Assembly (NCBI GenBank): GCA_025350815.1
Contig: JANXXE010000117.1
Location: 1-42,418 of the forward strand
Length of the DNA: 42,418 nucleotides
Direction of reading: 5' to 3'
From: Myxococcales bacterium
Lineage (GTDB): Bacteria > Myxococcota_A > Polyangia > Fen-1088
Program-made: the position numbers and the translations under genes
The notes under the pieces: model-generated
Told to the model about the DNA's origin: nothing
What the model saw: the letters and a program-made list of their open reading frames with translations, nothing else
The model's database searches: none
Part shown: positions 6,968 to 36,600 of the stretch, one piece after another
How the letters are laid out: each line of letters begins with the position of its first letter
Position numbering within the stretch: position 1 is the stretch's first letter

Positions 6968-7600
6968 CTATTCCAGCCGTATCAGGCCGCGACGGATCGC
7001 GATGGTCACGGCCTGCGTGCGATCGTCGGCGCCCAGTTTGCCGAGGATGTTGATGACGTGGGTCTTCACAGTTCCTTCGGTGACTGACAACGCGTCGCCG
7101 ATTCTCTTGTTGCTCAGGCCCTTGGCGATCAGATTCAGGACCTCGATTTCGCGGGCGCTGATCTGCGAGCGCTGTAGGCGTTCGGCCAGGCGAACGGCGA
7201 TTGCCGGTGGGATGTGGTGGCCGCCGCCGTGGACGGTGCGCACGGCCGTGACCAGATCCTGGCCCAGCATGTTTTTCAACAGGTACGCGCGGGCGCCGGC
7301 CTCCAGGGCGCGAAAGATTTCCTCGTCGCCGTCGTAGGTGGTCAGCACGATGACCCGCGCCGCCGGATCTTCGGCGAGGATGGCACGCGTGGCCTCGACG
7401 CCGCCCATCACCGGCATGCGCAGATCCATCAACGTGACGTCTGGTCGCAACTTGCGGAACTGTTCCAGCGCCGCGTGCCCGTCGTCGGCCTCGCCCACGC
7501 ACTGAAGATCAGCCTCGCTGTGCAACAGACCCACCAGGCCCATGCGCACGACCGCATGATCGTCGACGACCAGCGCGCGGATTTTCTTCGCGGGCGCCAT
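6968..7600 (-). CDS. NarL/FixJ-family response regulator
   Basis: Two-component output regulator of 210 residues, the normal length for the family. The receiver domain spans about residues 5-125, with acidic pocket D13-D14, phosphoacceptor D59 (TLMDLRMP), T86/T87 and conserved K109. A LuxR/GerE helix-turn-helix follows at about 145-205, with SAREIEVLNLIAKGLSNKRI and TEGTVKTHVINILGKLGADDR. The ATG overlaps the stop codon of the histidine kinase by one base (TGATG), so the pair is translationally coupled and almost certainly cognate. NarL-type regulators bind inverted repeats; a perfect 9-2-9 inverted repeat lies in the promoter region upstream of the kinase (10582-10601) and is the natural candidate target. 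Confidence 0.94.
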   Translation of the reverse strand: MAPAKKIRALVVDDHAVVRMGLVGLLHSEADLQCVGEADDGHAALEQFRKLRPDVTLMDLRMPVMGGVEATRAILAEDPAARVIVLTTYDGDEEIFRALEAGARAYLLKNMLGQDLVTAVRTVHGGGHHIPPAIAVRLAERLQRSQISAREIEVLNLIAKGLSNKRIGDALSVTEGTVKTHVINILGKLGADDRTQAVTIAIRRGLIRLE

Positions 7601-10542
7601 CAGATTTTCACCTGCACGTCGATCTGTGTGCCCTGGCCGGGCGCAGAACGCAACGTCAGATGTCCGCCCAGCTGCTTGGCTCGCTCGCGCATTCCCACCA
7701 GGCCGAAATGGCCGTCTTGTTCCGCCGGGGCGTGGTCCATGTCGAAACCGCGGCCGTCGTCCTTGATGGTCAGGCGCACGAGATCAGCCTCGAAGGCCAG
7801 CTCGATATCGATGCGCGTGGCGTGGCCATGGCGAAGGGCGTTCGCCAGCGCCTCCTGGCTGATGCGCAGTAGATCGTTCTCGACGACGCCGGTCAGCGCC
7901 CGGGTCTGCCCGCCGACGCGCAGCTCGACTTTCACCGGCAAGCCGTCGGTCAACGTCGCCACCGCCGCGGTCAGCGCCGCGACCAGATTCCCGCCTTCAA
8001 GGGCCTGCGAGCGCAGATCCGCTATCGATCGACGCGCCTCGGTCTGGCTGTGGACCAGCAGATCGCGGGCCAGGGCAATCGGCCGGTGGGCCGTGGCGTC
8101 CGCGGGCAGGGTCTTGTCCGCGACGTCCAGTTGCAGCGCCACCGCGGTGAAGGCCTGGTCCAGCGTGTCGTGCAGCTCGCGCGCCATGCGGTTGCGTTCG
8201 GCCAGCACGGCCGAAAATCGCGTCTTCACCTGCATCAGCCGCAGCCGATACAGGCCCGACCCCAGCACCAGCAAGGCCAGCGCCAGGGCGGGATAAAAGC
8301 CCCGGGTCTCGTGCCAGTGCGCCGCGAAGGTCACGTCCACGAACGCGCCGGCCTCATTCCACACGCCGTTGTCGTTGCAGGCCTTCACGCGAAAATGATA
8401 GGGGCCAGGCGGCAGGTTTGTGTACGTGGCGCTGCGGCGCTTGCCGGCGTCGATCCAATCCTTGTCGAAGCCGTCCAGGCGATACTTGAACTGAACCTTC
8501 TGCGGCTCGCGAAAGCACAGCGCCGTGTAGACGATTTCCAGGTTGCGCGGGCCCGGCGGCACCGTCGCGGGGGATGATCCTTCGTGCATGCGCCCGTTGA
8601 TCGTGACGCTTTCGACGAAGACCGGCGGTGGTGTGCGGTTGACGGGCAGATGCCGCGTATCGACGACCATCAGCCCCGAGGGACCGGTCAGCCACAGGCG
8701 ACCGTCCTGGGTCAGGCAGCGGCCCGGCTGGTCGACCGAGCATTCTTGCGATCGCAACCCGTCGCCCTTGCCGTAGAAGGTCGACAAAACGCCCGCCTGT
8801 TTGCCGTCCATCACGTCCTGCAATGCTCGCTTGTCGACGTGAAAGACCGCCTTCGGACCGGCCAGCCACACGCGCCCCTGGCCGTCTTCAATGACCTGGG
8901 AGATGTCATCGTCGAACAGACCGTGCCGCGTGGTCACGGTCGACCAGTGGCCATCGCGGAAACGAGACAGCCCGTCGGTGGTGCCGAACCACAGAGTGCC
9001 GTCCGCGTCCTCGGCAATGGCCTTGACCGCGTCGCTGCCCAAACCGTCGGCGACGGTGTAATGCGTGCTGGAATTCCCGTCCAGACAGGTCAGCCCGCGC
9101 CCCGCGACGCCGAACCACACGCGGCCCTGCCTGTCCTCGTGCACGGGGCGCGCGTACGTCAGTTCAGAAATCGTCGAGCGAATGGTCAACCCGGCCGCTG
9201 TCCAGCGGGCCAGACCGCCCTGCGCGCCAATCCAGAAGCCACCAGCGCGCGCGGGGACGATGGTGACGACGTCATTGCTGGGCAGGCCGTCCTTCTTGGT
9301 GAAGGTGGTGAATTGCCCGTCGCGCAGGCGGCTTAGTCCCTGGTTGGTGCCCGCCCAGACAGCGCCGTCCGGATCCTCGAAAATGGTGCGGACGTAATCG
9401 CTGGGCAGACCGTCGCTGCGCGAATATTTTCGAAAGCGACCGTCCTTGAACTTGAGAAATCCCCCGCCGCGGGTCGCCACCCACAGACTGTGATCGCGTG
9501 ATTCAGCGACGGACGTCGTCCAGTCGTGCGACAGGCCCTCGCGCTTCGTATAGGTCGTGAACACGCCGTCGCGGAAGCATTCGAGGCCGTTCATGGTGCC
9601 GACCCAAAGATTCCTTTCCGCGTCTTCCAGCAACGCGGTGACGCGGTTGTCGGCAAGACCGTTCGTGCTGTCGAAGGTCTCGACTGCACCGTCGCGGACG
9701 CGCGCGATGCCGTCCATGGTCGCGACCCATACGCCCGCGTCGCTGTCGGCCCGAAGATCCCGAACCGAATTGTCGGGTTGTTCCGTGCGCGGCGCAGATG
9801 TCGTCAGCCTGCCGTCCTGCAAGCGTGACAGCGCCGCGCGCCGGGTGCCGATCCACAGCACGCCGTGGGCGTCCTCGGCCAGGGCGGTGATGCGGTTGTC
9901 GTGAAGGCCTTCGGCCGTGGTGTAGCGCGTCCGACTGTCGCCTTGCCGCCGCACAAGGCCGTTGTCGGTGCCCAGCCACATGATCCCGTTCTTGCCGGCC
10001 AGCAAACAGCGAATGCTGTCCGCTTCGGATTCGCGGCGAAACTGCCCTGCCGCCCAGGTGGCCAGTCCGTTTCCGGTGGCAATCCACAATAGGCCGTCCG
10101 CGTCCTCTTCCAGCGCGACCACCGCGGCGCCGGGCAAGCCGTCTTTTTCAGAATAGGCGGTGAAGGCCCCGTCGCGGTGGCGCAACAGACCCTGCGAGGT
10201 GCCGATCCAGACGCTGCCGTCACGGGTCGCCCGAAGCGCCAGAATGCGATCACTGACCATCGCCGGCGTGTTGCGGCGGTCGAAGGTGCGAAACGCGACA
10301 CCGTCGAAGCGGGCCAGTCCCCCCGGTGTCCCCACCCACAGGTAGCCATCGCGATCCTGCGCCAGGGAATGCACGGCCTCGCGCGGGAGGCCCTCCTCGA
10401 CCCGCCACAGTCGGTGGCTGTACTGGCCAATCCCCCGGCTGGGGTCCAGCGCCCAGGCGCCCGCGGGCCAGGACAGCGCCGCGATGGTGATGCACGCGCC
10501 GAAAACGCGGGTCCTTCGCCACGGTGGGTCACGGGGCCGCAT
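7600..10542 (-). CDS. Propeller-type sensor histidine kinase (Reg_prop, Y_Y_Y, HisKA_3, HATPase)
   Basis: Membrane sensor kinase of 980 residues. A signal peptide (ITIAALSWPAGAWA) is followed by about 14 repeats of the Reg_prop type, for example DRDGYLWVGTPGGLARFDG, enough for two seven-bladed propellers in the periplasm. Next come a Y_Y_Y domain (YRLDGFDKDW, about residues 660-730), a transmembrane helix (ALALALLVLGSGLYRL), and a HisKA_3 domain with phosphoacceptor H791 (ARELHDTLDQ). The ATPase domain has an N box at N901 (ISQEALANALRH), a G1 box DDGRGFD at about 928 and a G2 box GLVGMRERAKQLGG. The same arrangement without the fused regulator is known from polysaccharide-sensing hybrid systems of Bacteroidetes, so a carbohydrate ligand is a fair guess, not a demonstrated one. 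Coupled to the regulator downstream. A -10-like TAAGAT close to the ATG suggests a leaderless message. Confidence 0.94.
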   Translation of the reverse strand: MRPRDPPWRRTRVFGACITIAALSWPAGAWALDPSRGIGQYSHRLWRVEEGLPREAVHSLAQDRDGYLWVGTPGGLARFDGVAFRTFDRRNTPAMVSDRILALRATRDGSVWIGTSQGLLRHRDGAFTAYSEKDGLPGAAVVALEEDADGLLWIATGNGLATWAAGQFRRESEADSIRCLLAGKNGIMWLGTDNGLVRRQGDSRTRYTTAEGLHDNRITALAEDAHGVLWIGTRRAALSRLQDGRLTTSAPRTEQPDNSVRDLRADSDAGVWVATMDGIARVRDGAVETFDSTNGLADNRVTALLEDAERNLWVGTMNGLECFRDGVFTTYTKREGLSHDWTTSVAESRDHSLWVATRGGGFLKFKDGRFRKYSRSDGLPSDYVRTIFEDPDGAVWAGTNQGLSRLRDGQFTTFTKKDGLPSNDVVTIVPARAGGFWIGAQGGLARWTAAGLTIRSTISELTYARPVHEDRQGRVWFGVAGRGLTCLDGNSSTHYTVADGLGSDAVKAIAEDADGTLWFGTTDGLSRFRDGHWSTVTTRHGLFDDDISQVIEDGQGRVWLAGPKAVFHVDKRALQDVMDGKQAGVLSTFYGKGDGLRSQECSVDQPGRCLTQDGRLWLTGPSGLMVVDTRHLPVNRTPPPVFVESVTINGRMHEGSSPATVPPGPRNLEIVYTALCFREPQKVQFKYRLDGFDKDWIDAGKRRSATYTNLPPGPYHFRVKACNDNGVWNEAGAFVDVTFAAHWHETRGFYPALALALLVLGSGLYRLRLMQVKTRFSAVLAERNRMARELHDTLDQAFTAVALQLDVADKTLPADATAHRPIALARDLLVHSQTEARRSIADLRSQALEGGNLVAALTAAVATLTDGLPVKVELRVGGQTRALTGVVENDLLRISQEALANALRHGHATRIDIELAFEADLVRLTIKDDGRGFDMDHAPAEQDGHFGLVGMRERAKQLGGHLTLRSAPGQGTQIDVQVKI

Positions 10543-10548
10543 CAGGCA

Positions 10549-10554
10549 ATCTTA
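10549..10554 (-). promoter_or_regulatory. Candidate -10 element of the kinase operon, possibly leaderless
   Basis: TAAGAT on the minus strand ends 6 bases before the kinase ATG, so transcription would begin at or next to the A of the start codon. There is no good -35 hexamer at the expected distance, which would fit a promoter that needs an activator bound at the nearby inverted repeat. Inferred by eye. Confidence 0.35.
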
Positions 10555-10581
10555 GGCCACGGATTCGCCAACGTGGAATTC

Positions 10582-10601
10582 GCTCTATCTAAAGATAGAG
10601 C
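10582..10601. promoter_or_regulatory. Perfect 9-2-9 inverted repeat in divergent promoter region
   Basis: GCTCTATCT-AA-AGATAGAGC, a perfect palindrome of 20 bases between the kinase/regulator operon and the DUF1549 gene. Its centre is about 50 bases upstream of the kinase ATG and 71 upstream of the DUF1549 ATG. It is AT-rich in a GC-rich setting. Arms separated by two bases are the geometry of NarL-type sites (7-2-7), so the adjacent regulator is the obvious candidate protein; the base sequence is not that of NarL sites from E. coli. Confidence 0.6.
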
Positions 10602-10662
10602 CGCGCCCGGGCTGATTGACGGACATACAAGCGCCACAGGCGGGGTCAGGATATGTCTTGCC

Positions 10663-13167
10663 ATGAAGGCCATCGTCATCCCCGCCACGGCGGCAGTGGT
10701 TATCGCGCAACTGGCGCTGTCGTCCGCCGCCCGCGCTGCCGTCGATTTCAACCGCGACATTCGTCCCATCCTGTCGGACAACTGCGTCCGCTGTCACGGA
10801 CCCGATGCGCCCGCGCGAAAGGCCGGCCTGCGCCTCGACACGCGCGAGGGCCTGCTGCTGCCCCGGCCCGACAGTGATCGCGTCGTCGTCGCGGGCAAAA
10901 GCGCGGAAAGCCCCCTTTATCAGCGGCTGGTCACCACCGACGACGATGACCGGATGCCGCCGGTCAAAAGCGGCAAGACACTTTCCGTCGCGCAAATAGC
11001 CGCCGTTCGCGAATGGATCGATTCGGGCGCCGCCTGGCAGCAGCATTGGGCCTTCGTCCCGCCCGTCCGGTCCCCGATCCCCGTTGTCAGCGATCGGCGC
11101 TGGGTCCGCAATCCCATCGACAACTTCGTGCGTGCCCGGCTGGACAAGGATGGCCTGGCCGCGTCGCCCGAGGCCAGTCGGCAGGCGCTGCTGCGGCGGG
11201 TGACGCTGGATCTGACGGGCCTTCCGCCCACCCTTCACGAACTTGATAAGTTCGTGAAGGATCGTTCGCCCAGGGCCTACGAAAAGGTGGTCGACCGCCT
11301 GCTGGCGTCCCCGCGCTACGGCGAGCGCATGGTGCTGGAATGGCTGCAGGCCGCGCGCTACGCCGACACGAATGGTTTTCAAAGTGACGGCGAGCGTGCG
11401 ATGTGGCCGTGGCGCGACTGGGCCGTGCGCGCCTTCAACAGCAACATGCCCTTCGATCGCTTCACGGTCGAACAGCTGGCCGGCGATCTTTTGCCGCATC
11501 CGACGATCGACCAGAAGATAGCCACCGGCTTCAACCGCAACCATTCCCTCAACGGCGAAGGCGGCGCCATCGCGGAAGAATCGCGCGTCGCCTACGTCAT
11601 GGACCGCGCGGAGACCACGGCGACGGTGTGGCTGGGCCTGACGGCGGGCTGCGCGCGCTGCCACGACCACAAATACGATCCGCTGAAGCAGGCCGAGTAC
11701 TACCGGCTTTACGGTTTCTTCAACCAGGTCGCCGAGACGGGCAACGTCGATCAGCGCGACCACACCGCGGCGCCGGTTTACGAATTCGCCGACACCCGGA
11801 CCCTGGGCGCGCGCGACGCGCAGAACGCGACGCTGCAGAAACTGAAGAAAGAGCAAGAGGGCTACGACACCGAGGTCCGCAAGGGACAGGACGCGTGGGA
11901 GAAGGCGGCCGATCCGTCGACCCTGTCAAAGGAGGTCGCCGCCGCCCTGGCGCGTCCGGCAGCGAACCGGTCAGTCGACGAGCGCAAGCGACTGACCGAG
12001 CAGTTCTTGGCCCAATTTCCCGAGCACAAAGCCAGGCAAAAGGCCGTCGACGAGGCGCGCCAGCAACTGGACGCGATGAACGCGAAGATCAGAATCACCA
12101 TGGTCATGGCGGATGCGGCGACGCCGCGCGAGACCTTTGTGCTGAGCCGGGGCGAGTACGACAAGCCGCGCGAAAAGGTGACGGCCGACGTGCCGTCGTG
12201 GCTGCCCCCGCTGCCGCCGCAGGCGACGCACAACCGCCTGGCCCTCGCCCGCTGGCTGGTGGATCCACAGAACCCGCTGCCGGCACGCGTGGCCGTGAAC
12301 CGCGCCTGGCAGATGTTCTTCGGCACCGGAATCGTCAAGACGTCGGAGGATTTCGGCACGCAGGGCGATCCGCCGAGCCACCCTGAATTGCTGGACTGGC
12401 TGGCCACCGAATTCGTTGGCAGCGGATGGAACGTCAAGGCCCTGCACCGGCGCATCCTGACCAGCGCGACCTACCGGCAGGCCTCGCGCACGACGCCCGA
12501 AACGCTGGAAAATGACCCCGAAAATCGTCTGCTGGCGCGCGGACCGCGCTTTCGGCTCAGCGCCTACGCGATTCGTGACCAGGCGCTGGCGTTGTCCGGC
12601 TTGCTGGTCGACAAGCTGGGCGGACCGCCGGTGCGGCCTTACCAGCCCGACAATGTGTGGGAGGATTTCAGTTACGGCCAAATCCGCTACCGCCGCGACA
12701 CCGGATCGGCGCTGTATCGCCGCAGCCTGTACGTCTTCTGGCGCCGGTCGGTGGGGCCGACGACCCTGTTCGACACGCCCGCCCGCCAGGTCTGCACCGT
12801 GCGGCAGTTCCGCACCAATTCGCCGCTGCACGCGCTGACCACCATGAACGATCCAACCTTTGTCGAGGCCGCGCGCGTATGGGCCGAACGCTTGCTGCGC
12901 GACGGACAGCTGACGCAGGACGAACGACTGGCCCTGGCCTTCCGAATGGCGACGGCGCGCAACCCGACACCCGAGGAAGGTGCGGTGCTGACCCACGCCC
13001 TGGAAGGATTTCTTCAGCGCTTTCGGCGCGATCCCGCCGCCGCCGAACAGTTGCTGGCCGTCGGTGACTTCCGGTCCAACAGCGCAATCGACGCCCCCAG
13101 TCACGCCGCCTACACGGCCGTCGCCAGTCTGATCTTGAATCTGGACGAGACGCTCACCAAGGAATGA
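10663..13167 (+). CDS. Secreted cytochrome-c-like DUF1549/DUF1553 protein
   Basis: Product of 834 residues exported by a Sec signal peptide (about residues 1-26, ending SSAARA). Three planctomycete-type domains follow in the usual order: a PSCyt1 cytochrome-c-like domain with haem motif C41-V-R-C44-H45, DUF1549 (about 135-340, with LRRVTLDLTGLPPT and a second CxxCH in CARCHDHKYDPL), and DUF1553 (about 530-790, with NRLALARWLVDPQNPLPARV and RRSLYVFWRR). The family is secreted, almost always sits beside DUF1501, and is suspected to act in polysaccharide or small-molecule oxidation, but no reaction is established. The ATG at 10663 is chosen because the signal peptide starts there; the frame is open far upstream. 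It overlaps the DUF1501 gene by four bases (ATGA). A 13-base-arm inverted repeat lies inside it at 11232-11260. Confidence 0.93.
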   Translation: MKAIVIPATAAVVIAQLALSSAARAAVDFNRDIRPILSDNCVRCHGPDAPARKAGLRLDTREGLLLPRPDSDRVVVAGKSAESPLYQRLVTTDDDDRMPPVKSGKTLSVAQIAAVREWIDSGAAWQQHWAFVPPVRSPIPVVSDRRWVRNPIDNFVRARLDKDGLAASPEASRQALLRRVTLDLTGLPPTLHELDKFVKDRSPRAYEKVVDRLLASPRYGERMVLEWLQAARYADTNGFQSDGERAMWPWRDWAVRAFNSNMPFDRFTVEQLAGDLLPHPTIDQKIATGFNRNHSLNGEGGAIAEESRVAYVMDRAETTATVWLGLTAGCARCHDHKYDPLKQAEYYRLYGFFNQVAETGNVDQRDHTAAPVYEFADTRTLGARDAQNATLQKLKKEQEGYDTEVRKGQDAWEKAADPSTLSKEVAAALARPAANRSVDERKRLTEQFLAQFPEHKARQKAVDEARQQLDAMNAKIRITMVMADAATPRETFVLSRGEYDKPREKVTADVPSWLPPLPPQATHNRLALARWLVDPQNPLPARVAVNRAWQMFFGTGIVKTSEDFGTQGDPPSHPELLDWLATEFVGSGWNVKALHRRILTSATYRQASRTTPETLENDPENRLLARGPRFRLSAYAIRDQALALSGLLVDKLGGPPVRPYQPDNVWEDFSYGQIRYRRDTGSALYRRSLYVFWRRSVGPTTLFDTPARQVCTVRQFRTNSPLHALTTMNDPTFVEAARVWAERLLRDGQLTQDERLALAFRMATARNPTPEEGAVLTHALEGFLQRFRRDPAAAEQLLAVGDFRSNSAIDAPSHAAYTAVASLILNLDETLTKE
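11232..11260. repeat. Perfect inverted repeat with 13-base arms inside the DUF1549 coding region
   Basis: The arm CCTTCACGAACTT is followed by GAT and then its exact reverse complement, giving a 29-base hairpin in DNA or mRNA. It codes for the residues around LHELDKFVKD. There is no T run after it, so it is not an ordinary terminator. Whether it has a function is unknown. Confidence 0.75.
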
Positions 13168-14618
13168 ATGCCATGACCACTGCTGCCGACCAACGCCATT
13201 TCCTTTCCCGCCGCGAACTTCTCGGGCGCACCGCCGCGGGGCTGGGCACGGCCGCGGTCGGCTCGTTGCTGCCGGGCCGCGCGCACGCGCTGGTGGAAGG
13301 TCAGGGCCTGCCCGGCCTGCCGCACTTCGCGCCGCGGGCCAAGCGGGTCATCTTCCTGACCCAGTCGGGCGGGCCGTCGCAGATTGATATGTTCGACCAC
13401 AAGCCGACGCTGGCCAAACTGCGTGGCACGGATCTGCCACCGTCGGTGCACCAGGGCCAACGCCTGACCACGATGACGGCCGGGCAGGGCATGAAGATCC
13501 AGCCCAGCGCCTTTCGTTTTGCGCAGCACGGACAGTCCGGCGCGTGGGTCAGCGAGCTTTTGCCCCACACGGCCGCCGTGTCGGATGACCTTTGCTACAT
13601 CAAGACCATGAACACTGAGGCCATCAACCACGCCCCGGGCATGACGACGCTGCTGACGGGTGGCCCGCAGCCGGGACGTCCCAGTGCAGGCGCGTGGGTA
13701 CAATATGGCCTCGGCAGTCTGAACCGCGATCTGCCCGGGTACGTGGTCATGCTGTCGCGCGATCAGCACGGCACCTGCGGCCAGTTGTTGTTCGATTATT
13801 ACTGGGGCAGCGGCTTTCTGCCGTCGAAATATCAAGGCGTGAAGTTCCGCGGCAGCGGTGATCCCGTTCTGTACCAGTCGGATCCGCCCGGCATCAGCCG
13901 GGAGGCGCGCCAGGATTTTCTGACCGACCTGACGGCGCTGGACCAGATCAAGTACCGCGAAATGGGCGATCCCGAGACCCTGACCCGCATCGCGCAGTAC
14001 GAGATGGCGTATCGGATGCAGGCGTCCGTGCCGGGGCTGACCGATCTGTCCGACGAGCCCGCATCGGTTCTGGAGATGTACGGCCCCGAGGTGCACAAGC
14101 CCGGCAGTTTTGCCGCCAACTGCTTGCTGGCGCGGCGCCTGGCCGAACGCGACGTGCGTTTCGTCCAGCTTTTCCACGTCGGCTGGGACACCCACAGGAA
14201 CATCGAAAGCGAGCTGCGCATGCAGTGCGAGGACACTGATCGCCCGTCGGCCGCGCTGGTCAAGGATCTCAAGCAGCGCGGCTTGCTGGACGACACGCTG
14301 GTGGTCTGGGGCGGCGAATTCGGGCGCACGGTGTTCAGCCAGGGCGATCTGAACGCCGTCGGCTACGGCCGCGACCATCATCCGCGCTGCTTCACGATGT
14401 GGCTGGCCGGCGGCGGCGTGAAGGCGGGAATGTCCTACGGCGAGACCGACGAGTTCAGCTACAACGTTGCCCGGGATCCCGTGCACGTGCACGACTTGCA
14501 GGCGACCATCCTGCACCTGTTGGGCGTCGACCATGAACGCCTGACCTTCAAATTCCAGGGCCGCAACTTCCGGCTGACCGACGTCGGCGGCAAGGTGGTG
14601 AAGGGGATCTTGCGCTAG
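13164..14618 (+). CDS. Tat-exported DUF1501 protein
   Basis: The 484-residue product belongs to DUF1501, a family related in fold to sulfatases and alkaline phosphatases whose substrate is not known. A twin-arginine signal is visible at about residues 14-42 (SRRELLGRTAAGLG ... PGRAHA), so it is exported folded. Family landmarks are FLTQSGGPSQIDMFDHKP, INHAPGMTTLLTGG, VQLFHVGWDTHRN, VWGGEFGRT, RDHHPRCFTMWLAGGG and a C-terminal LLGVDHERLTFKFQGR. The start codon overlaps the DUF1549 stop (ATGA), so the two are translationally coupled and probably act together outside the cytoplasm. It ends four bases before the convergent M1 peptidase gene. Confidence 0.94.
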   Translation: MNAMTTAADQRHFLSRRELLGRTAAGLGTAAVGSLLPGRAHALVEGQGLPGLPHFAPRAKRVIFLTQSGGPSQIDMFDHKPTLAKLRGTDLPPSVHQGQRLTTMTAGQGMKIQPSAFRFAQHGQSGAWVSELLPHTAAVSDDLCYIKTMNTEAINHAPGMTTLLTGGPQPGRPSAGAWVQYGLGSLNRDLPGYVVMLSRDQHGTCGQLLFDYYWGSGFLPSKYQGVKFRGSGDPVLYQSDPPGISREARQDFLTDLTALDQIKYREMGDPETLTRIAQYEMAYRMQASVPGLTDLSDEPASVLEMYGPEVHKPGSFAANCLLARRLAERDVRFVQLFHVGWDTHRNIESELRMQCEDTDRPSAALVKDLKQRGLLDDTLVVWGGEFGRTVFSQGDLNAVGYGRDHHPRCFTMWLAGGGVKAGMSYGETDEFSYNVARDPVHVHDLQATILHLLGVDHERLTFKFQGRNFRLTDVGGKVVKGILR

Positions 14619-19591: not shown

Positions 19592-20668
19592 ATGTCCACG
19601 CTAAAAGAGAAGCTGAAGCTGGTGACCGCGGCCGTGGCCGCCATCGAGAAGCAGTTCGGAAAGGGTTCCATCATGTCGCTCGGGGGCGGCGACGTCCCCG
19701 AGATCTCGGTCATCCCGACCGGGTCGATCGGTCTCGACGTCGCGCTGGGCGTCGGCGGCCTGCCGCGTGGTCGCGTGGTCGAGATCTACGGACCCGAATC
19801 GTCGGGCAAGACCACGTTGATGTTGCACGTCATCGCGCAGGCCCAGAAGGCGGGCGGCGTGTGCGCCTTCATCGACGCCGAACACGCCCTGGATGTGCAG
19901 TACGCGCGAAAGCTGGGTGTGCGCATCGAGGACCTGCTTGTGTCCCAGCCCGACTGCGGCGAGCAGGCGCTGGAAATCGTCGACCGCCTGGTAGGCACGG
20001 GTGCGGTCGATCTGATCGTTGTGGATTCCGTCGCCGCGCTGGTCCCGCGGGCCGAGATCGAAGGCGAGATGGGGGACGCGCACATGGGCTTGCAGGCGCG
20101 TTTGATGAGTCAGGCCCTGCGCAAACTGACGGCGGCCACCGCGCGCAACAACACGGCGGTCGCCTTTATCAACCAACTGCGCATGAAGATCGGCGTGATG
20201 TACGGGAATCCCGAAACCACCACCGGGGGCAACGCGCTGAAGTTCTACGCCAGCGTGCGTCTCGACATTCGCAAAACAGGCTTGGTCAAGGACGGCGAGC
20301 AAGCGGTGGGCAGCAAGACGCGCGTCAAGGTAGTAAAAAACAAGGTGGCGCCGCCCTTCCGCGAGGCGGAATTCGAGATCATCTACGGCACCGGCATCAA
20401 CTGGGCCGGCGAAATCGTCGATCTGGCCTCGGACGCCGGCCTGCTGGAAAAATCGGGCGCGTACTACTCGCTCAAAGGCGAGCGGATCGCACAGGGCCGC
20501 GACAAGGCCTGCGCCTTCATGATCGAGCACCCGGCCGTCGCCGAGGACCTGCGCCTGGGTCTGGTCGCCGCGCGCAAGGCCGAGAACGCCCGCATCGGTG
20601 CCAGCAGCGTCGTGCCCGAGCCCGAGCCCGGGCTGGAGTCGGAGGCGGCGGCAGCGGCAGCGGCCTAG
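19592..20668 (+). CDS. recA: Recombinase A
   Basis: Central protein of homologous recombination and the SOS response; it forms filaments on single-stranded DNA. The 358 residues match the usual length. Walker A is GPESSGKT at residues 67-74, Walker B is the [10 protein letters not shown] segment, loop L1 reads [20 protein letters not shown], and loop L2 lies in [20 protein letters not shown]. The [12 protein letters not shown] strand and the C-terminal domain are intact; the tail ends in a short acidic stretch and seven alanines. The ATG at 19592 has a strong AGGAG 6 bases upstream; the frame extends upstream but that part is not protein-like. No recX follows, and I find no CTGT-N8-ACAG LexA box in the 212-base upstream gap, so SOS control is not evident here. 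Confidence 0.98.
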
Positions 20669-20687
20669 GCAGTCAACGGCTCAGGTG

Positions 20688-20713
20688 CCCTGGGGGGGCG
20701 AATCCCCCCGGGG
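20688..20713 (+). terminator. GC-rich hairpin after recA
   Basis: CCC-T-GGGGGG pairs with CCCCCC-G-GGG across a 7-base loop, a ten-pair stem including one T/G wobble. It starts 20 bases after the recA stop codon. There is no T run directly behind the stem, although TTTTGTT follows about 15 bases later, so it may be a weak or Rho-assisted terminator. Confidence 0.45.
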
Positions 20714-20733
20714 GTGCATGGGCCACTGTTTTG

Positions 20734-20763
20734 TTGACACCACGCTTTAGTTGCCGATACGCT
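20734..20763 (+). promoter_or_regulatory. Candidate promoter for the DUF1592/DUF1552 operon
   Basis: A perfect -35 TTGACA at 20734-20739 and TACGCT at 20758-20763 are separated by 18 bases. The -10 keeps the three most important bases (T, A and final T). It lies between the recA hairpin and the GTG at 20782, giving a leader of only about 12 bases, which still holds the GAAGGG ribosome-binding sequence. Confidence 0.45.
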
Positions 20764-20781
20764 ATCGAAGGGCGGCGTGTA

Positions 20782-22566
20782 GTGAATAGTCGGTCTGATA
20801 GAAGGTCTGCTCATGGTGGCCTGTCCGCCGCGATGACGGCAGGGATCCTGCTCGCCACGCTGGCGTCGGCGTGTGTGGGGTCGATCGACGGCCGTAATGT
20901 GTCTGTGAGCGGCCCCGCTTCGGGTGCCGCGGGATCCCCGGAGACCACCACGCAGGGTTCCGCCGGCGCTGGGGGCACCGTTGCGATGGGCGCCACGGTT
21001 GCGATGGCCGCCAAGGAAGAAAGCGCGGGACCGTGGCAGCTTCGGCGGCTGACGACGCGCGAGTACGACAACACCGTCGCCGACCTGCTTGGCGTGACGG
21101 GCTACGGGGGAATTCCCCTGCCCAATGATGCCCCCGGGGAAACGGGCTTTACCTTCCCTGCGGACGCCACAGAACAGCACGCGCGCCTGTTTCGAGAGGC
21201 GGCTCAGACGCTGGCCGACGCGGCGTTGAAGGGTTCGTGGACCCGCTTGGTACCCTGCGCGCCGACGTCAGGATCCACCGCCCCGGCAGAGGACGCATGC
21301 GCCCTGCAGTTCATCCGGAACTTCGGCAAAAGTGCGTTCAGGAGGCCGCTCGGCGAGGACGAGGTCGACGAGCTTGTGGCGTTGTACCGCCAGATTCGGA
21401 CGGACGTCGGCTATGACTTCAAGAGCACCATAAGTCTGCTGGTGCAGGCGTTCCTGCAATCACCCAGGTTTCTCTATCACCAGGAGCGGGGCCTGGACGC
21501 CCCGATTCGACAAGGGGATCTTATTCGCCTCGCGCCCTATGAGGTGGCCTCGCGCCTTTCGTATCTTCTTTGGGAAACGATGCCCGACGCGACGCTGTTC
21601 GCCGCGGCGGATGCGGGGGCATTGGCCGCCGAAAAGGACGTCGTGGCGCAGGCCGAACGCTTGCTTAGCGATCCGCGTGCGGCGCGCAGTCTGGGCAGCT
21701 TTCATCAACAGTGGCTGCAGATGGGGACGCTTGGCCGCATTGAAAAGGACGCCGGCGTGTTTCCGTCCTTCGCCACAGCCATCCGACCATCCCTCGAGGC
21801 CGAGTTCGACGCTTTCGTCCAAAATGTCTACAACGGCGACGCCCGGCTGGAGAGCTTGCTGACGTCTCCCGTTGCCTTCGCAACGGCACAGACAGCGGCG
21901 CTTTACGGTTTACCGCCGGTGGTCGTGGCGGCCCTGCAGCCCGGCGTGATCGCGAAGGTCGATCTTGATCCCACGCAGCGCGCCGGCCTGCTGACCCAGT
22001 TGGCATTCCTGTCCGCCAAGGCCTCGTTGGTGAGGCGCGGTGTGGCCGTCTACAAGTTTCTGCTCTGCGGTCAGGTTGCGCCGCCGCCGAAGAGCGTCGA
22101 AAATGAGGTCAACGCGCAGACAGCCAGCGCTGCGACCGAGCAAGAAAAGGCCGCCGCACGCAAAGCGCAGGCGTCCTGCGCGGCTTGCCACCAGTATATG
22201 GATCCCGCCGGGTTCGCGTTCGAGAACTACGACGCCGTTGGCCAGTACCGGAAGGTCGCTGCCGACGGCTCCGCGATAGACTCATCGGGCCTGCTGCCGT
22301 TGCCCAGCGGGCAAACGACGTTTGCGGACGCCGTCGGCTTGCTGAAAAGCCTGGCAAAGACGGAGGAAGCTCGTCGGTGCGTGACGCGACAGTGGTTCAG
22401 GTACGCGCTTGGTCGCGTCGAAACGGCTGACGAGCAGCCAACGCTCGACCGGGTCTATGATCAATTGGCGGCCGAGGGGTCATTCGACCTCAGGAAGCTT
22501 GTTCTTGCGGTGACTCAGTCCCGATCGTTCTTGTTCAGGTCGCCGAGTCCAGGGGAGGCACCATGA
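20782..22566 (+). CDS. DUF1592-family lipoprotein with haem c-type motif (first copy)
   Basis: Secreted multi-domain protein of 594 residues. The planctomycete-type domains come in the usual order: DUF1587 (RRLTTREYDNTVADLLG), DUF1595 (FGKSAFRRPLGEDEVDELV), DUF1592 (LAPYEVASRLSYLLWETMP), DUF1588 (RAGLLTQLAFLSAKASLVRR) with C466-A-A-C469-H470 (then QYMDPAGFAFENYD), and DUF1585 (TRQWFRYALGR). CxxCH would bind haem c. A lipobox is visible (LATLASA-C). GTG 20782 is chosen because GAAGGG lies upstream and a promoter ends just before it; ATG 20833 is an alternative that still gives a signal peptide. The gene overlaps the DUF1552 gene by four bases (ATGA). The biochemical role of the family is unknown; oxidation of an extracytoplasmic substrate is inferred from the haem motif. 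Confidence 0.9.
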   Translation: MNSRSDRRSAHGGLSAAMTAGILLATLASACVGSIDGRNVSVSGPASGAAGSPETTTQGSAGAGGTVAMGATVAMAAKEESAGPWQLRRLTTREYDNTVADLLGVTGYGGIPLPNDAPGETGFTFPADATEQHARLFREAAQTLADAALKGSWTRLVPCAPTSGSTAPAEDACALQFIRNFGKSAFRRPLGEDEVDELVALYRQIRTDVGYDFKSTISLLVQAFLQSPRFLYHQERGLDAPIRQGDLIRLAPYEVASRLSYLLWETMPDATLFAAADAGALAAEKDVVAQAERLLSDPRAARSLGSFHQQWLQMGTLGRIEKDAGVFPSFATAIRPSLEAEFDAFVQNVYNGDARLESLLTSPVAFATAQTAALYGLPPVVVAALQPGVIAKVDLDPTQRAGLLTQLAFLSAKASLVRRGVAVYKFLLCGQVAPPPKSVENEVNAQTASAATEQEKAAARKAQASCAACHQYMDPAGFAFENYDAVGQYRKVAADGSAIDSSGLLPLPSGQTTFADAVGLLKSLAKTEEARRCVTRQWFRYALGRVETADEQPTLDRVYDQLAAEGSFDLRKLVLAVTQSRSFLFRSPSPGEAP

Positions 22567-23930
22567 AGTCACGCGAAAAGTTCTCGCGACGCGCCTTTCT
22601 CAAGGCGACTGGAATCAGCCCCCTTTTGTTGCCGCTCGTTGAGCCTCAGTTGGCCCGTGCCGGTTGCCTGCCCAACGGACCCAAGCGCGCCGTGTTTGTC
22701 GTATGGCCTAATGGCATCTTGCCGGAGAACAAGCCGGAGAACTGGCCCTCTGCCCGAAGCGGCCCAACAGACTTCTCACTGTCCCGAGCCATGCAGAGCC
22801 TTGAGCCGTATCGGAAGGATCTGCTGTTCCTCGACAAGCTGAACTACCGGTTTCTCGACGACACGCCTATTGGCAAATACCCCGCCGGCGTAAATGGGCA
22901 CCTCACTCACCAGGGGCTGTTGACCGGGCGGAGAATGCTCGAGTTCAGGCCCAATGGGGACAACGTGGCCGCGGGTCCATCGATCGATCGTTATCTGGGC
23001 AGCGAGCTAAAGAAGCTCTACCCGCACCTGTTACCCAGTAGCCTCTATCTCGGCGTCTTCCTCACGTACCCCGCATACGCGGTCCACGACGGACCCAACA
23101 AACCCGTCGCGCCATTCGAAGATCCCCTGGCTGCGTTCAGCGCCGTGTTTTCCGGCCGCACCAGCGGGGTTCCCGATCCCGAGATAGAACGAGCGCGTCA
23201 GGGTCAGAAAAGTGTCCTCGACTTCGTCGCCAAGGATCTGGTTCGATTCGGCCAGAGGCTGGGCACCGAGGACGGATACAGGATCCAGCGGCACCTGGAT
23301 TCGATCCGGACAATCGAAAACGAGATCCTCGCGGTGCGCCCGGTCCTCGTTGACACCTGCGTGCCGAAATCGGCACCGGCTGCGATCGACAAACTATTGC
23401 CCGAGAACCTGCCGAAGTTAATGCAATTGCAAATGGATATTCTGGTGGCGGCCATGGCAGCCGATGTGACCAGGGTTGCCGTTCTGCAGTTTGCCGACGG
23501 ACAAGGTTCCAATCTCTATTTTCCCTGGTTGAACCTGGCGACTGGTACCCGCGCGAGCACTTTTCACGAGGTCAAACACGAGACCGTGCCGGGGTCGTTC
23601 GAGGTCGATTCATGGATTTACCAGCAGTGGGCCTACCTGATCGGTAGGCTGAACGACGAAAAGGAGGGCGACAAACGGATGCTGGACACCTCCGTGGTCA
23701 CTTTCATGAACAACATGACGCTGGGGCTTCACACTTGGAACGACGTGCCCGCCTTTCTGGCCGGCAGTTGTGGCGGGTACTTCAAGACGGGACGTTGCGT
23801 GAAGAACACAGCCCCCAGTGCCTTTCACCCCCCGCTGCTGGTGTCGATTGCGAACGCGATGGGCTTCGACCAGCTCCAATCATGGGGCGATCCCGAGTAC
23901 AACAGCGGTCCGATGCCTGGCCTGACCTGA
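22563..23930 (+). CDS. Tat-exported DUF1552 protein (first copy)
   Basis: Product of 455 residues in DUF1552 (PF07586). The twin-arginine signal is strong: FSRRAFLKATG at residues 7-17 followed by a hydrophobic stretch ending PQLARA. Family landmarks are PKRAVFVVWPNGILPENK, LNYRFLDDT, NGHLTHQGLLTGRRM (histidine-rich motif), SVLDFVAKDL, LQLQMDILVAAMAADVTRVA and TFMNNMTLGLHTWND. DUF1552 is distantly like DUF1501 and sulfatase-type folds; its substrate is unknown. Its start overlaps the DUF1592 stop codon, so the two products are made together and presumably act as a pair outside the cytoplasm, with the haem-type partner as a possible electron acceptor (inference). Confidence 0.92.
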   Translation: MKSREKFSRRAFLKATGISPLLLPLVEPQLARAGCLPNGPKRAVFVVWPNGILPENKPENWPSARSGPTDFSLSRAMQSLEPYRKDLLFLDKLNYRFLDDTPIGKYPAGVNGHLTHQGLLTGRRMLEFRPNGDNVAAGPSIDRYLGSELKKLYPHLLPSSLYLGVFLTYPAYAVHDGPNKPVAPFEDPLAAFSAVFSGRTSGVPDPEIERARQGQKSVLDFVAKDLVRFGQRLGTEDGYRIQRHLDSIRTIENEILAVRPVLVDTCVPKSAPAAIDKLLPENLPKLMQLQMDILVAAMAADVTRVAVLQFADGQGSNLYFPWLNLATGTRASTFHEVKHETVPGSFEVDSWIYQQWAYLIGRLNDEKEGDKRMLDTSVVTFMNNMTLGLHTWNDVPAFLAGSCGGYFKTGRCVKNTAPSAFHPPLLVSIANAMGFDQLQSWGDPEYNSGPMPGLT

Positions 23931-30532: not shown

Positions 30533-31894
30533 CTAGACCTCCAGGCCGCGCACCGGGCCGCAGTCTGACACCTCACCGAACCCCTCTGCGGGAACGCCCA
30601 TCATGTTCAGCACCGAAGTGCCCAGGCGGTGATAGTCCTGCGCGCCCCCGTCCACCATATAGCCCGTGCGTTTCAGTCGCCCCGCCGCCTTGCCCAACAT
30701 CACGATCGGAATGTCCTGCATGGCGTGGTTCCCCGTCGCAATCTCGTTGCCCCAGACGATCAGTGTGTTGTCGAGGGCCGTTCCGTCGCCTTCCGGAATG
30801 CGGTCGAGCGCGCGGGCCAGGTACGCCACCTGTTCGGCGTGCCAGACATTGATCTTCAGGATCTTGGCCGTGATCGTCGGATCCATGCCGGTGTCTCTGT
30901 GGGCGATGTCGTCGTGGCTGTTCTCGTTGATGCCGAGCCACCGGTAAAACCATTTCTCACCGCCGTTGCCAAACTGAAAAGTGACGATGCGGGTCAGTTG
31001 GCAGGTCAACGTCAATGCCACGAAGTCCAGCATCAGCCGAACCAACTGGGGCACGTTGTCTTCGGCACCAGGGTCCAGCCCCACAGGCGGCGCGGTGACT
31101 GACACGCAACGGCCAGGCCGCCGAGCGGCGGGATTCAACGTGCTGCCCAGTTGCTGTTCCAGTTGCCGCAGGGCCGCTTCGTGTGCGTCCAGGCGCTCGC
31201 GATCCCGTTTGCCGACAGTCGTACGCAGGTTGCGCAGATCGCCGGTGACAAAATCCAGTACCGACTTCTTCTGTTGCAGGCGTCTGCGTACAACCGCCGC
31301 CGCATCTGCGTCGTTGCCGGCCGTCTGTCCCGCCACGGCACCCGCGGGGAAAAATCGCGCGTAGAGTTTGGTCACATCCACCTCGGTCGGAATCTGGCGA
31401 CGGGGTCCCGAGTAGCTGAAGCTGCGTCGGTGCGTCTTGAACGCCGGAATGTCCGTCGCCAGTACCCCGCAATGCAGCGACGGGAACGGCTCGCCGAATG
31501 TCAGAGATTTGCGCAATAGCTGATCGATTGAAATGCCGCCGCCCCAGGGATCGTTGAACGTACCGACGGACTGGTACCCGGACCACAGGCCGGAAAATCC
31601 GAAGTCGTGGCCATTTCCAATGCCGCCCACGGTATTGGTGATCCCCTTGATGATCGTGGTCTTGGCCCGCAAGACGGGATCATCCGTGATGGGCGCCAAG
31701 ATGGGCGATTCCAGCTTGTCCGGTGTGCGTGGCCAGAAATTCGACTGGCCGGTGCCGTTCGATTGCATCAGCAGCACCAGCCTGGGCGCCGCCGTGGCCG
31801 CGTGAACCGGCCGTGGGCGCAGCCACGGCAACATCACGCCGCACGCCCCCAGGGCGCGCAAGCAGTTGCGTCGTGTCGTGCGAGCGGCGCTCAC
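30533..31894 (-). CDS. DUF1552 protein (second copy)
   Basis: Product of 453 residues, the same family as the protein at 22563-23930 but clearly diverged from it. The signal is Tat-like (TTRRNCLRALGACGVMLPWL, ending RPVHAA), though the position after the arginines is not the classical F-L-K. Landmarks are RLVLLMQSNGTGQSNFWP, GNGHDFGFSGLWSG (histidine-containing motif), SVLDFVTGDLRNLR, ALTLTCQLTRIVTFQFGNG and TLIVWGNEIATGNHAMQ. The start is a GTG that overlaps the stop of the DUF1592 gene (GTGA), the same coupling as in the first copy. The role of the family is unknown. Confidence 0.92.
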   Translation of the reverse strand: MSAARTTRRNCLRALGACGVMLPWLRPRPVHAATAAPRLVLLMQSNGTGQSNFWPRTPDKLESPILAPITDDPVLRAKTTIIKGITNTVGGIGNGHDFGFSGLWSGYQSVGTFNDPWGGGISIDQLLRKSLTFGEPFPSLHCGVLATDIPAFKTHRRSFSYSGPRRQIPTEVDVTKLYARFFPAGAVAGQTAGNDADAAAVVRRRLQQKKSVLDFVTGDLRNLRTTVGKRDRERLDAHEAALRQLEQQLGSTLNPAARRPGRCVSVTAPPVGLDPGAEDNVPQLVRLMLDFVALTLTCQLTRIVTFQFGNGGEKWFYRWLGINENSHDDIAHRDTGMDPTITAKILKINVWHAEQVAYLARALDRIPEGDGTALDNTLIVWGNEIATGNHAMQDIPIVMLGKAAGRLKRTGYMVDGGAQDYHRLGTSVLNMMGVPAEGFGEVSDCGPVRGLEV

Positions 31895-33600
31895 GGCTCT
31901 GACTCCACCCGGCGGACGATGAACGCCGGGCTGCCGACCACGCCCAGCAGCGCCGCACCGATGCGGCCCTGACCGCTTTCGAAAACGCGGGCGAGGTGTG
32001 CCAGCAGCGGCGCATCGCCGGCCTCGGCGGCCCGTCCTTCACCAAATCGCCATAGCTGTTTGACGAAGCAGCGACGGAATAGGGTGCTGCCCACCAGACG
32101 CAGGGACAACTCAGCGGGTCCGGTGAAGACACCGTCGATGTCGCTGCCGGCGATTTCACCCCGGCCGTCGATTGGCAGTTGCGCCGGCCCCTCGACCGAC
32201 TGAAATCGTCCCAGCGTGTCGAAATTCTCGAAGCCAAAGCCCAGCGGGTCCATCAGCCTGTGGCAAGAGCGGCAAAACGGATCCTGGGCGTGGGCTTCGT
32301 ACTTGCCGCGCGTGGTCTGCGTCGTCGACGCCGCGGGTGCCTGCGCCATCACATTGGCCGGTGGCGGTGGAACGTCCTGGCACAGCAGGCGTCCGCGGAT
32401 GACCAGGCCACGCTGCACGGGGTTGGTCTGCGCGATCCCGGCATGTGTGGCCAGGAACGCGGGCGAGGACAGGAGGCCGCGGCGGTGTCGGGTATCGAGC
32501 CCCACCCGCTGAAAGTCACCGGGTGGCCCCTTGAGGTCATCCTGGTAGATAGGAACAAGGGCGGGGCCAGGAAAGGTGTAATCGGCGACGAAGAATTCGT
32601 CGAGGCGCCCGTCGGATCGCACAAGGACATCGTCGAGAAAGGTCTCAAGCTCCCGTTCCAGGGCAAAGCGCACCTGCGGCGTGAACACTGGCAGCACGCC
32701 AAGATCCTTGTTGATGACGGCCACGTCCTTGAGTCCCAGCCACGCGCGCAGAAATCCGCGCAGATGGGCCCGGGCTGCGGGGCCTGCCAGCAACCGACGC
32801 GATTGCTGTTCGCGGATCGATGCGTTCACCAGGCCTCCGCTTGCGGCTGCCGCCTGCAACTCGGCATCGGGACGCCTGCCCTGCAGAAGGAAGGACAGCT
32901 GCGAGGCGATTTCGTAGCCGTCCAGTTGAACCTCCTGCGCATCCTTGGGGGGCATCCCCGCACCCAGTTCAAGGCGGTAGACAAAATAGGGTGATTGCAG
33001 CATCGCGGACACCAGCAGGCGCACGCCCGACGCATAGTCACCATCGGTGAACCCGACGCTGAACACGTCGTCCAGACGCTGCCGTTCGTCATCTGTGAGG
33101 GGGCGGCCGTAAGCCCGCAGGGCCAGCCAGGACGCGAATCGCCTGGCGCAGTCGCCCGGTTGCTCATCGGTCGTACAGGGTGCAAACGCGGACAGACGGG
33201 TGGGCGCCGTGATGAAATCGGCGACGCGCTCGGCGGCGGTGGCGATCTCGTCCACCTTGCTCTCGGAGGTGTCGAGTGTCGCGACGTCGTTGTCATAACC
33301 TTCGACGCGGGGATCGGGAAGAAAGCCCTTCGTGACAAACAACGGCGCACCCAACAAGTCGCCCAGGACATTGTCGAGTTCGGCATTGCTAAGCCGGCGC
33401 AACCGACGTGGCGTCTGGCCGCGACTTTCGCCCGTCGCGTCAGACGAAGCTGTGCCTGTGGGTGACAGGGGCGTCCCGAGCGAGGCCGCGGGATCGTGGC
33501 TGCAAGCACCTGCCAGCAACAGCAGGGCGCCCAGCCGCCACCCCTGACGTCGCCCGATTCGGCTTGCCGACCAACACGGAGCCATCGCGTTCACTGACAT
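31891..33600 (-). CDS. DUF1592-family lipoprotein with haem c-type motif (second copy)
   Basis: Product of 569 residues with the planctomycete-type domain order: DUF1587 (RRLSNAELDNVLGDLLG), DUF1595 (RAYGRPLTDDERQRL), DUF1592 (DGYEIASQLSFLLQGRRPDA), DUF1588 (HRRGLLSSPAFLATHAG) with C443-R-S-C446-H447 (then RLMDPLGFGFENFD), and DUF1585 (FVKQLWRFGEGR). The signal peptide ends in a lipobox (LLLLAGA-C). ATG 33600 has GGGG 8 bases upstream; ATG 33585 is an alternative and would leave the nearby direct repeat outside the gene. It is coupled to the DUF1552 gene by a four-base overlap, and is divergent from the DUF4215 lipoprotein gene across only about 50 bases. It shares order and coupling with the copy at 20782 but not close sequence, so it is not a recent duplicate. 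Confidence 0.9.
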   Translation of the reverse strand: MSVNAMAPCWSASRIGRRQGWRLGALLLLAGACSHDPAASLGTPLSPTGTASSDATGESRGQTPRRLRRLSNAELDNVLGDLLGAPLFVTKGFLPDPRVEGYDNDVATLDTSESKVDEIATAAERVADFITAPTRLSAFAPCTTDEQPGDCARRFASWLALRAYGRPLTDDERQRLDDVFSVGFTDGDYASGVRLLVSAMLQSPYFVYRLELGAGMPPKDAQEVQLDGYEIASQLSFLLQGRRPDAELQAAAASGGLVNASIREQQSRRLLAGPAARAHLRGFLRAWLGLKDVAVINKDLGVLPVFTPQVRFALERELETFLDDVLVRSDGRLDEFFVADYTFPGPALVPIYQDDLKGPPGDFQRVGLDTRHRRGLLSSPAFLATHAGIAQTNPVQRGLVIRGRLLCQDVPPPPANVMAQAPAASTTQTTRGKYEAHAQDPFCRSCHRLMDPLGFGFENFDTLGRFQSVEGPAQLPIDGRGEIAGSDIDGVFTGPAELSLRLVGSTLFRRCFVKQLWRFGEGRAAEAGDAPLLAHLARVFESGQGRIGAALLGVVGSPAFIVRRVESEP

Positions 33601-33625
33601 CTGGACGACCCCATCTGGACGCCCC
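33598..33625. promoter_or_regulatory. Tandem 14-base direct repeat in divergent promoter
   Basis: CATCTGGACGACCC is followed at once by CATCTGGACGCCCC, identical at 13 of 14 positions. It lies between the second DUF1592 gene and the DUF4215 lipoprotein gene. Two head-to-tail copies in a shared promoter look like an operator. The first copy overlaps the ATG chosen for the DUF1592 gene. A -10-like TAAGCT at 33631-33636 lies directly beside it. Confidence 0.45.
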
Positions 33626-33652
33626 AATGATAAGCTATTCACAAGGATATTC

Positions 33653-36600
33653 ATGACGCACAAACATATTTCACTAAGTCACGCCTTGATCGTCGCTTCG
33701 TCTCTCGCGTTCGCTGCCTGTTCGCAACGCGTGTTTCAGGTTGTCGCGGCGGACGGCGCTGTTGAGGACGACGATGGTGGACTGGTGGATGCGGCTGACG
33801 CCTTTGTGTTGCAGCTGCCCGATGCGCCTGTCGCCACGGACGCGCCCGCCAACCCCGGCGGCTGCAACGGAGGTGGCTGCGACGCGGGTGACGCGGGCCC
33901 CCAGGCCGTCTGTGGCAACGGCAAGCTCGAAGATGGTGAAAGCTGCGATGACGGCAACGCCCGGCCGGGCGATGGCTGCTCGGGTCTTTGTAGGGTTGAA
34001 CCGAACTTCACCTGTCCCACGGTCGGATCGCCGTGTCGGTCGACCATCGTGTGCGGCGACGGCAACGTGCAGGGTGGCGAAGCTTGTGACGACATGAACG
34101 CCGCGTCCGGCGACGGTTGTTCCGACACCTGTCAGGTCGAGGCCGGCTACGCCTGCGCAATGCCCGGCAAACCCTGCACACGGGTGCCGACCGCCCGATG
34201 TGGCGACGGCGTCGTGAACCAGGGCGAGACCTGCGACGACGGCAACGCCACGCCCGGCGACGGCTGTTCCGCCGTCTGCCGCCTGGAACCCGCCTACACC
34301 TGCCCGGTTCCCAACCAGAAATGCATCAAGGACGAATATTGCGGTGACGGGTTGCTCAACGGCATCGAGCAATGCGACGACGGCAACGCCGCCCCGGGCG
34401 ACGGTTGCACGGGCGCGTGTCGTATCGAACAGTACTTCGAGTGCAAGGTTCCCGGTCAGGCCTGCACCACCACCATCGTTTGCGGCGACGGCAAGGTCAT
34501 CGGCGATGAGGCCTGCGACGACAACAACAAGATGGGCGGTGACGGTTGCTCCGCGAACTGCAAGCAGATCGAACCCGGTTATTCGTGTCCCACGACCGCG
34601 GGCGTGGGCGGCGCTTGCATTTTGGTACCCAAGGACATCTGCGGCGACGGCCGCCTCAGTTACGGTGAATATTGCGACGACGGAAATATGGTGGCGGGCG
34701 ACGGTTGCACGGCGGATTGCCACGTCGAATCCGGCTACGCCTGTCCCAAGGCCGGCCAAAGGTGTGCCCTGGTGGAATGGTGCGGCGACGGACAGTTGAG
34801 CGTCGCCAACGGCGAGCAGTGCGACGACCACAACACCGTGGGGGGCGACGGCTGCAGCGGCCAGTGCGTGATCGAGGCGAACTTTGCCTGTCCGCAGCCC
34901 GGCCAACCCTGCCAGTCGACCGTGATCTGTAGCGATCGGCGCGTCTCGGGCGGCGAGACCTGCGACGACGGCAACCTCGTCAGCGGTGATGGATGTTCCG
35001 GCCTGTGTGCTGTCGAGGCGGGCTGGACCTGTCAGCTGGGTAACGCGTGCCGCCCGGCCCAATGTGGCGACGGTATCAAGGTTGGCTCCGAGCAGTGCGA
35101 TGATCACAACGCGAACCCGGGCGACGGTTGCAGTGCCACCTGCACGCTCGAAGTTCCCGGTCCCGCGGAAGAAAATGGTTGGGTTTGCCCGACGCCAGGC
35201 CAGCCCTGCGTGCGCACCGTCTGCGGCAATGGCGTAGCGGAAGGTTCCGAACAGTGCGACGACGGAAACAACAACATGGGTGACGGCTGTACGCCCTTTT
35301 GTCGCAAGGAACCCGTTTGTCCCGCGGCGGGCGGCTCGTGCAGCACCAGTTGCGGCGATGGCTTGCTGTTGCCTGTGGACATCAGCGCCGGGCAGGAATG
35401 CGACGACGGCAACACGTTGTCGGGCGATGGCTGTTCCAGTACTTGCAAGATCGAACCTGGGTATCGGTGCACGTCGACGGCCACGACACAGGATCCGTTG
35501 CTGCTTCCCATCATCTTGAGGGATTTCAAGGCAGCGGGCGACCCCAATGGCCATCCGGATTTCGAACAGTACGTCGGCAGCGTTACCGGGATCGTCGAGA
35601 CTATGCTCGGCACGAATGGAAAACCCATCCACGTGGCCGCTGACACCTCTGTCACGACGAACAACAACCCCGGCGTCAGCACGGACTACTTTTCGTACTG
35701 GTATGCCGACAACGCTCAGTACAACAAGACCATCCACGATGTTCTTTCCTTCACGCGGCTCGGCAGCGGCGTCTATCAGTACAGCAACTCCGACTTCTTC
35801 CCGCTGGACGGAAAAGGCTGGGGAAACTACCAGCCGTACATGAACGGCCTGCACAACTTCCATTTCACGTCGGAGGTTCGTTACTGGTTCGAGTATGGCG
35901 GCAGCGAGCAATTGGATTTCACCGGTGATGACGACGTCTGGGTCTTCATCAACAAGAAGTTGGCGGTCGATCTGGGTGGTGTCCACGGCGCCGAGGACGC
36001 CAGCGTGATCCTGGATGCCACGAACGGCACCGGCCAGGTATGCGATCTGCTGAACAACTGCGGCGCGCGGCGAACGGTCGACTTCGGCCTGCAAAAGGGC
36101 AAGGTCTACGAGATCGTGGTCTTTCAGGCCGAACGGCACATCACCCAGTCGAATTATCGCCTGACGCTGTCGAACTTCGCTGGAACCCACAGCCAGTGTG
36201 CCACCGTCTGCGGTGACGGAATCGTGACCTCGAACGAGGCCTGCGATCTGGGGACGGCCCAGAACACCGGCGCCTACGGCACCTGTCATGCGGACTGCAC
36301 GTTGCCCCCCCGCTGCGGTGACGCCGTCGTTCAGCCCAACGAGCAGTGCGACAACGGCCTGAACGTGTCCACCTACGGCGGGACGGCGAAGCTGTGCGCG
36401 CCCGGATGCGTGTTTGCCGCTTACTGCGGCGACGGCAAGGTCGACAGCGCCAACGGGGAAGCCTGCGATCAGGGCGCGGACAACGGCAAGGGCTACGGCT
36501 TCTGCACCGCCACTTGCCAACTGGGGCCGCGTTGCGGGGACGGCATTGTCACCGACGCCGAGGAGTGCGACGACGCCGCCAACAACGGAACGTCCGGCAG

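Follow-up and report, generated by a model that had tools for sequence, protein, structure and literature searches.

The 42,418-nt window considered here, the whole stretch of DNA that was analysed, contains a minus-strand operon for a propeller histidine kinase and a NarL-type response regulator, a plus-strand PSCyt1-PSCyt2(DUF1549)-PSD1/DUF1501 operon, and, flanked by the two, a short divergent gap that holds a perfect inverted repeat. The locus raises the question whether this palindrome is an operator bound by the regulator encoded next to it, as a first-pass annotation had proposed, or an inverted repeat that arose by chance. Neither a function nor a mode of regulation is known for PSCyt/PSD/DUF1501 pairs, which several phyla carry in large numbers (PMC5615132). 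If a regulator site were proven, it would give a first hint of what such pairs respond to.

A perfect palindrome between two divergent operons

The palindrome, checked in the sequence at positions 10582-10601, is GCTCTATCTAAAGATAGAGC, a 9-2-9 inverted repeat with arms GCTCTATCT-AA-AGATAGAGC. The gap is bounded by the kinase ATG at 10542 (minus strand) and by the signal-peptide start ATG of P0003 at 10663 (plus strand). Repeat, position and gap limits thus agree with the first-pass annotation, and its gene names (kinase, DUF1549, DUF1501) agree with the Pfam domains (Table 1). Within the 300-bp stretch around the gap, the repeat is the sole perfect palindrome with arms of at least 7 bp and a spacer of at most 8 bp. 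The arms have a higher AT content than the 66% GC genome around them. From the centre of the repeat it is 49.5 bp to the start codon of the kinase and 71.5 bp to the start codon of P0003.

Table 1. Features of the divergent locus (positions in the window)
Feature	Position	Strand	Basis
NarL-type response regulator P0002, 210 aa: Response_reg + GerE	6968..7600	minus	PF00072, PF00196 above cut-off
Histidine kinase P0001, 980 aa: Reg_prop repeats, Y_Y_Y, HisKA_3, HATPase_c	7600..10542	minus	Pfam, all above cut-off
120-bp divergent intergenic gap	10543..10662		without sigma-70-type promoter or terminator by consensus scan
Possible -10 TAAGAT for leaderless kinase transcript	10550..10555	minus	by eye; missed by consensus scan
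Perfect 9-2-9 palindrome GCTCTATCTAAAGATAGAGC	10582..10601		sequence; no other genome site within 2 mismatches of 16 fixed bases
P0003: PSCyt1 + PSCyt2 (DUF1549) + PSD1 (DUF1553)	10663..13167	plus	Pfam
P0004: DUF1501 protein, Tat-like SRRELL motif	13164..14618	plus	Pfam; overlaps P0003 stop

The P0002 gene overlaps the kinase stop by one base, and the solved structures nearest to P0002 are VraR, ChrA, DevR and NarL. The genome encodes only two strong GerE-domain proteins, of which P0002 is the strongest, and among the window proteins scanned no other obvious DNA-binding transcription regulator was seen. The regulator of the adjacent operon, proposed earlier as the cognate one, is a genuine NarL-type protein and a candidate for that role.

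P0003 begins with a signal-like sequence and contains two CXXCH motifs (the translation used here starts 3 codons ahead of the ATG). Its PSCyt2/PSD1 coding sequence contains, at 11232-11260, a longer perfect palindrome of 13-3-13 form (CCTTCACGAACTTGATAAGTTCGTGAAGG), which is statistically stronger than the 9-2-9 repeat, with ~0.01 expected by composition in the whole window (arithmetic). Two more planctomycete-type clusters lie on opposite strands at 19592-23930 and 30533-33663, each with the order PSD3-PSD5-PSD4-PSCyt3-PSD2 (DUF1587/1595/1592/1588/1585) and a DUF1552 (HXXSHH) partner, giving three planctomycete-type systems within 24 kb of the window. Farther along, at 39139-42156, genes for metallo-beta-lactamase-fold, TENA/PqqC-family and radical SAM/SPASM proteins form a row suggestive of pyrroloquinoline quinone (PQQ) biosynthesis (pqqB, pqqC, pqqE).

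Chance expectation

For a 120-bp gap of the same composition, the chance of a perfect palindrome with arms of at least 9 bp is ~0.0004 with a spacer of 2 bp and ~0.002 with a spacer of 0-4 bp; these single-gap values are the most favourable figures, because the whole window had been scanned by the earlier reader. Across the intergenic DNA of the window, roughly 2.6 kb, ~0.1 such palindromes are expected (an estimate from match probabilities). As a background, 501 kb of stretches from the same genome, divided into coding and intergenic DNA by a purpose-made rough gene caller, yielded 10 perfect palindromes with arms of at least 9 bp and spacers of 0-4 bp. Three of the 10 fall in the 45.8 kb roughly called intergenic, where chance gives ~1-2 (arithmetic), so that palindromes of this kind are not enriched between genes in this genome. 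We conclude that the palindrome is locally notable and genome-wide unexceptional, and that such palindromes are no commoner than chance predicts.

The same genome contains, on stretch L140, a perfect 13-4-13 palindrome at 18240 (AAACGGCGTCGAAGAAATTCGACGCCGTTT), terminator-like in look, and an 11-4-11 palindrome at 957; according to the rough gene calls, both lie within genes.

Recurrence of the site

A single copy of the palindrome core, TATCTNNAGATA, is present in the genome of 4.5 Mb. In the window there is no other site within 3 mismatches (0 in 100 shuffles), including no related site at the two DUF1592/DUF1552 operons, and, scored on its 16 fixed bases, the site has no second copy in the genome at 2 mismatches or fewer. 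When up to 3 mismatches are allowed, 7 places in the genome match, including the site itself, vs. 10 for a reversed control. A regulon in the window or the genome is therefore rejected: the site is single and near-matches fall below the control. The suggestion that the palindrome be sought near DUF1549, DUF1592 and DUF1552 genes of the genome and its relatives led to no further site at the two DUF1592/DUF1552 operons or in the readable promoters of DUF1549 homologues.

Among 290 class genomes, and among 250 from the class to which the acidobacterial relative described below belongs, the only exact copy is the window's own. Sites with at most one mismatch occur in 9 of the 290 class genomes (8 besides the own genome) vs. 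15 control matches, which gives no sign of a conserved operator within the class. In the 250 genomes of the acidobacterial class, near-matches are slightly above control (11 vs. 5). Neither the kinase nor P0003 nor P0004 has a homologue in the flanks fetched for the near-matches of both classes; one flank carries a 29% identical regulator.

Relatives of the two operons

At the thresholds used, no kinase ortholog is found in the 18 family genomes (also the full set available for the order) or in the 290 class genomes, and no P0003 ortholog is found in the same 18. The closest kinases found, with 36-42% identity, come from the class to which an acidobacterial MAG belongs; plasmid relatives reach ~30% identity only. 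Nearly all acidobacterial kinase relatives have a NarL-type regulator directly downstream, and these regulators are 46-59% identical to P0002, more than the 41-49% of the best regulators in a sample of the own phylum. The kinase-regulator pair, being closer to acidobacterial pairs than to those sampled from its own class and phylum, may therefore have been acquired horizontally. The palindrome is absent from the readable promoters of the acidobacterial kinase relatives. The recognition helices of the regulators of these relatives are only 44-67% identical to that of P0002, so their operator is expected to differ and the absence counts as a weak negative.

Homologues of P0003 with 35-60% identity occur in Planctomycetota, Verrucomicrobiota, Acidobacteriota and others, and most of the homologous loci retain the DUF1501 partner. 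Fetched flanks of up to 6 kb at the 80 nearest PSD1/DUF1549 loci contain no propeller kinase (0/80). A conserved kinase-PSCyt neighbourhood is thus rejected, and sensor and 'output' do not form a conserved module. The palindrome is likewise absent from the readable promoters of PSD1/DUF1549 homologues. The expectation that orthologous promoters would keep the palindrome is not borne out on the kinase or the DUF1549 side, an outcome that the first-pass annotation had named as refuting, although the relatives on both sides are distant ones.

Our literature search found nothing on the regulation of DUF1501/DUF1549. PSCyt2-PSD1/DUF1501 genes are described as conserved pairs of unknown function in Verrucomicrobia MAGs, and their link to carbohydrates is circumstantial (PMC5615132). 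The idea that the DUF1549/DUF1501 pair is the output of a carbohydrate-type sensor is not supported: the pairing is seen only here, and the label 'carbohydrate-type' draws on an analogy with Bacteroides hybrid systems, a type to which this sensor does not belong.

Fit to NarL-type sites and to promoters

NarL-type sites have a 7-2-7 form with a 2-bp spacer (PMC7419079), and TCTATCT-AA-AGATAGA, within the palindrome, has both the 7-bp inverted elements and the 2-bp spacing. Against the E. coli NarL consensus, TACYYMT-N2-AKRRGTA, the palindrome matches at 8/14 positions, a score reached at ~3.5% of window positions. The assignment to the NarL family made in the first-pass annotation is therefore right as to spacing but not as to consensus, so that the label is carried by the spacing alone.

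A consensus scan detects no sigma-70-type promoter on either strand of the gap, and the distances of 49.5 and 71.5 bp are for that reason not assignable to an activator or a repressor position. The centre of the palindrome had been placed about 50 bases from the likely start of the kinase transcript; the distance holds for the start codon, and would apply to the start of transcription only in the case of a leaderless transcript. For such a transcript the hexamer TAAGAT, at -12 to -7, would be a weak -10 element, with 4/6 matches to TATAAT and no clear -35 element.

Discussion

The results identify a real sequence feature that is ordinary in kind, with a putative operator function. The reading that we favour, and hold tentatively at less than even confidence, is that the palindrome is a candidate operator, single-copy and lineage-specific, to which a homodimeric DNA-binding protein would bind. 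The foremost candidate for that protein is P0002, because it is encoded in the adjacent operon, because the 2-bp spacer has the geometry of NarL-type sites and because it is one of only two strong GerE proteins of the genome. According to this hypothesis, the propeller kinase would phosphorylate P0002, phosphorylated P0002 would bind the palindrome as a dimer, with one CTCTATCT arm per half, and bound P0002 would control, in one direction or the other, the operon that encodes it and perhaps also the PSCyt/DUF1501 operon across the gap. The case for a candidate operator is made by the probability of ~0.002 for the gap and by the AT-richness of the arms; the case against it is made by a single, unconserved site in 4.5 Mb, near-matches in the class that do not exceed the reversed control, the 8/14 fit to the NarL consensus, the chance density of such palindromes and the lack of a detected promoter. 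The hypothesis that P0002 is the regulator stays alive because one of just two strong GerE proteins is encoded here and because the recognition helices of its relatives differ.

Between a local operator and chance the balance is roughly even. That the palindrome is a chance inverted repeat without function is a substantial possibility, somewhat short of even: the 10 palindromes in 501 kb, 3 of them intergenic, are about what chance predicts, ~0.1 are expected in the intergenic DNA of the window by estimate, and both the uniqueness of the site and its non-conservation fit. Set against chance are the low probability for this particular gap and the location of the repeat, within a short divergent promoter beside a transcription regulator. 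Symmetric sites of 20 bp also suit TetR-, GntR-, PadR- or LuxR-type dimers. This latitude, together with the poor match to the NarL consensus, would allow the palindrome to be a candidate operator for some other dimeric regulator, whose gene would lie elsewhere in the genome. Such a protein would have to act in trans, since the window proteins scanned include no other obvious transcription regulator, and a trans-acting regulator usually has more than one site, whereas no other lies within 2 mismatches; we consider this explanation unlikely. It is very unlikely that the palindrome acts as an RNA hairpin, whether in the PSCyt operon's 5' leader or in that of a kinase transcript read in the opposite direction. 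At the palindrome, plus-strand RNA can fold into a stem of 8 bp capped by a loop of 4 bases, but the folding stability of the whole stretch is no better than that of shuffles (z -1.18), the gap has no terminator-like T run, and no transcription start upstream of the palindrome is predicted. A terminator or a strong leader structure is accordingly rejected or weak.

A broader version of the operator hypothesis, that a propeller kinase/NarL-type pair related to acidobacterial pairs was placed beside the PSCyt/DUF1501 operon and took control of it through one palindromic operator, appears rather improbable. If it were true, kinase control of the PSCyt/DUF1501 operon would be the first known sensor input for this family of unknown function. 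As matters are, the practical gain is small, because the pairing of sensor with output is peculiar to this genome and the palindrome is a single-copy candidate.

Comparison with known systems

The periplasmic Reg_prop/Y_Y_Y sensor resembles that of Bacteroides hybrid two-component systems (HTCS). An HTCS, however, is one polypeptide with an AraC-type output, whereas here a HisKA_3 kinase is accompanied by a separate NarL-type regulator, and a carbohydrate ligand cannot be inferred from the shared sensor domains. The 'planctomycete-specific' PSCyt2-PSD1/DUF1501 cytochrome clusters have the same two-gene order at nearly all homologous loci; the operon here differs in being divergent from a two-component system, an arrangement seen at none of the 80 nearest loci. 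The promoters of the Reg_prop/Y_Y_Y HisKA_3 kinase and NarL-type regulator pairs of Acidobacteriota are without the palindrome, and the short flanks examined have no PSCyt/DUF1501 gene, but these pairs share with P0001 and P0002 both the domain order and the placement of the regulator gene after the kinase gene. In relation to the E. coli NarL 7-2-7 operator (TACYYMT-N2-AKRRGTA), the palindrome differs in its partial consensus match (8/14), in arms that reach 9 bp and in being a single site predicted from sequence, and it is alike in having two inverted arms, a 2-bp spacer and a NarL-type regulator gene nearby.
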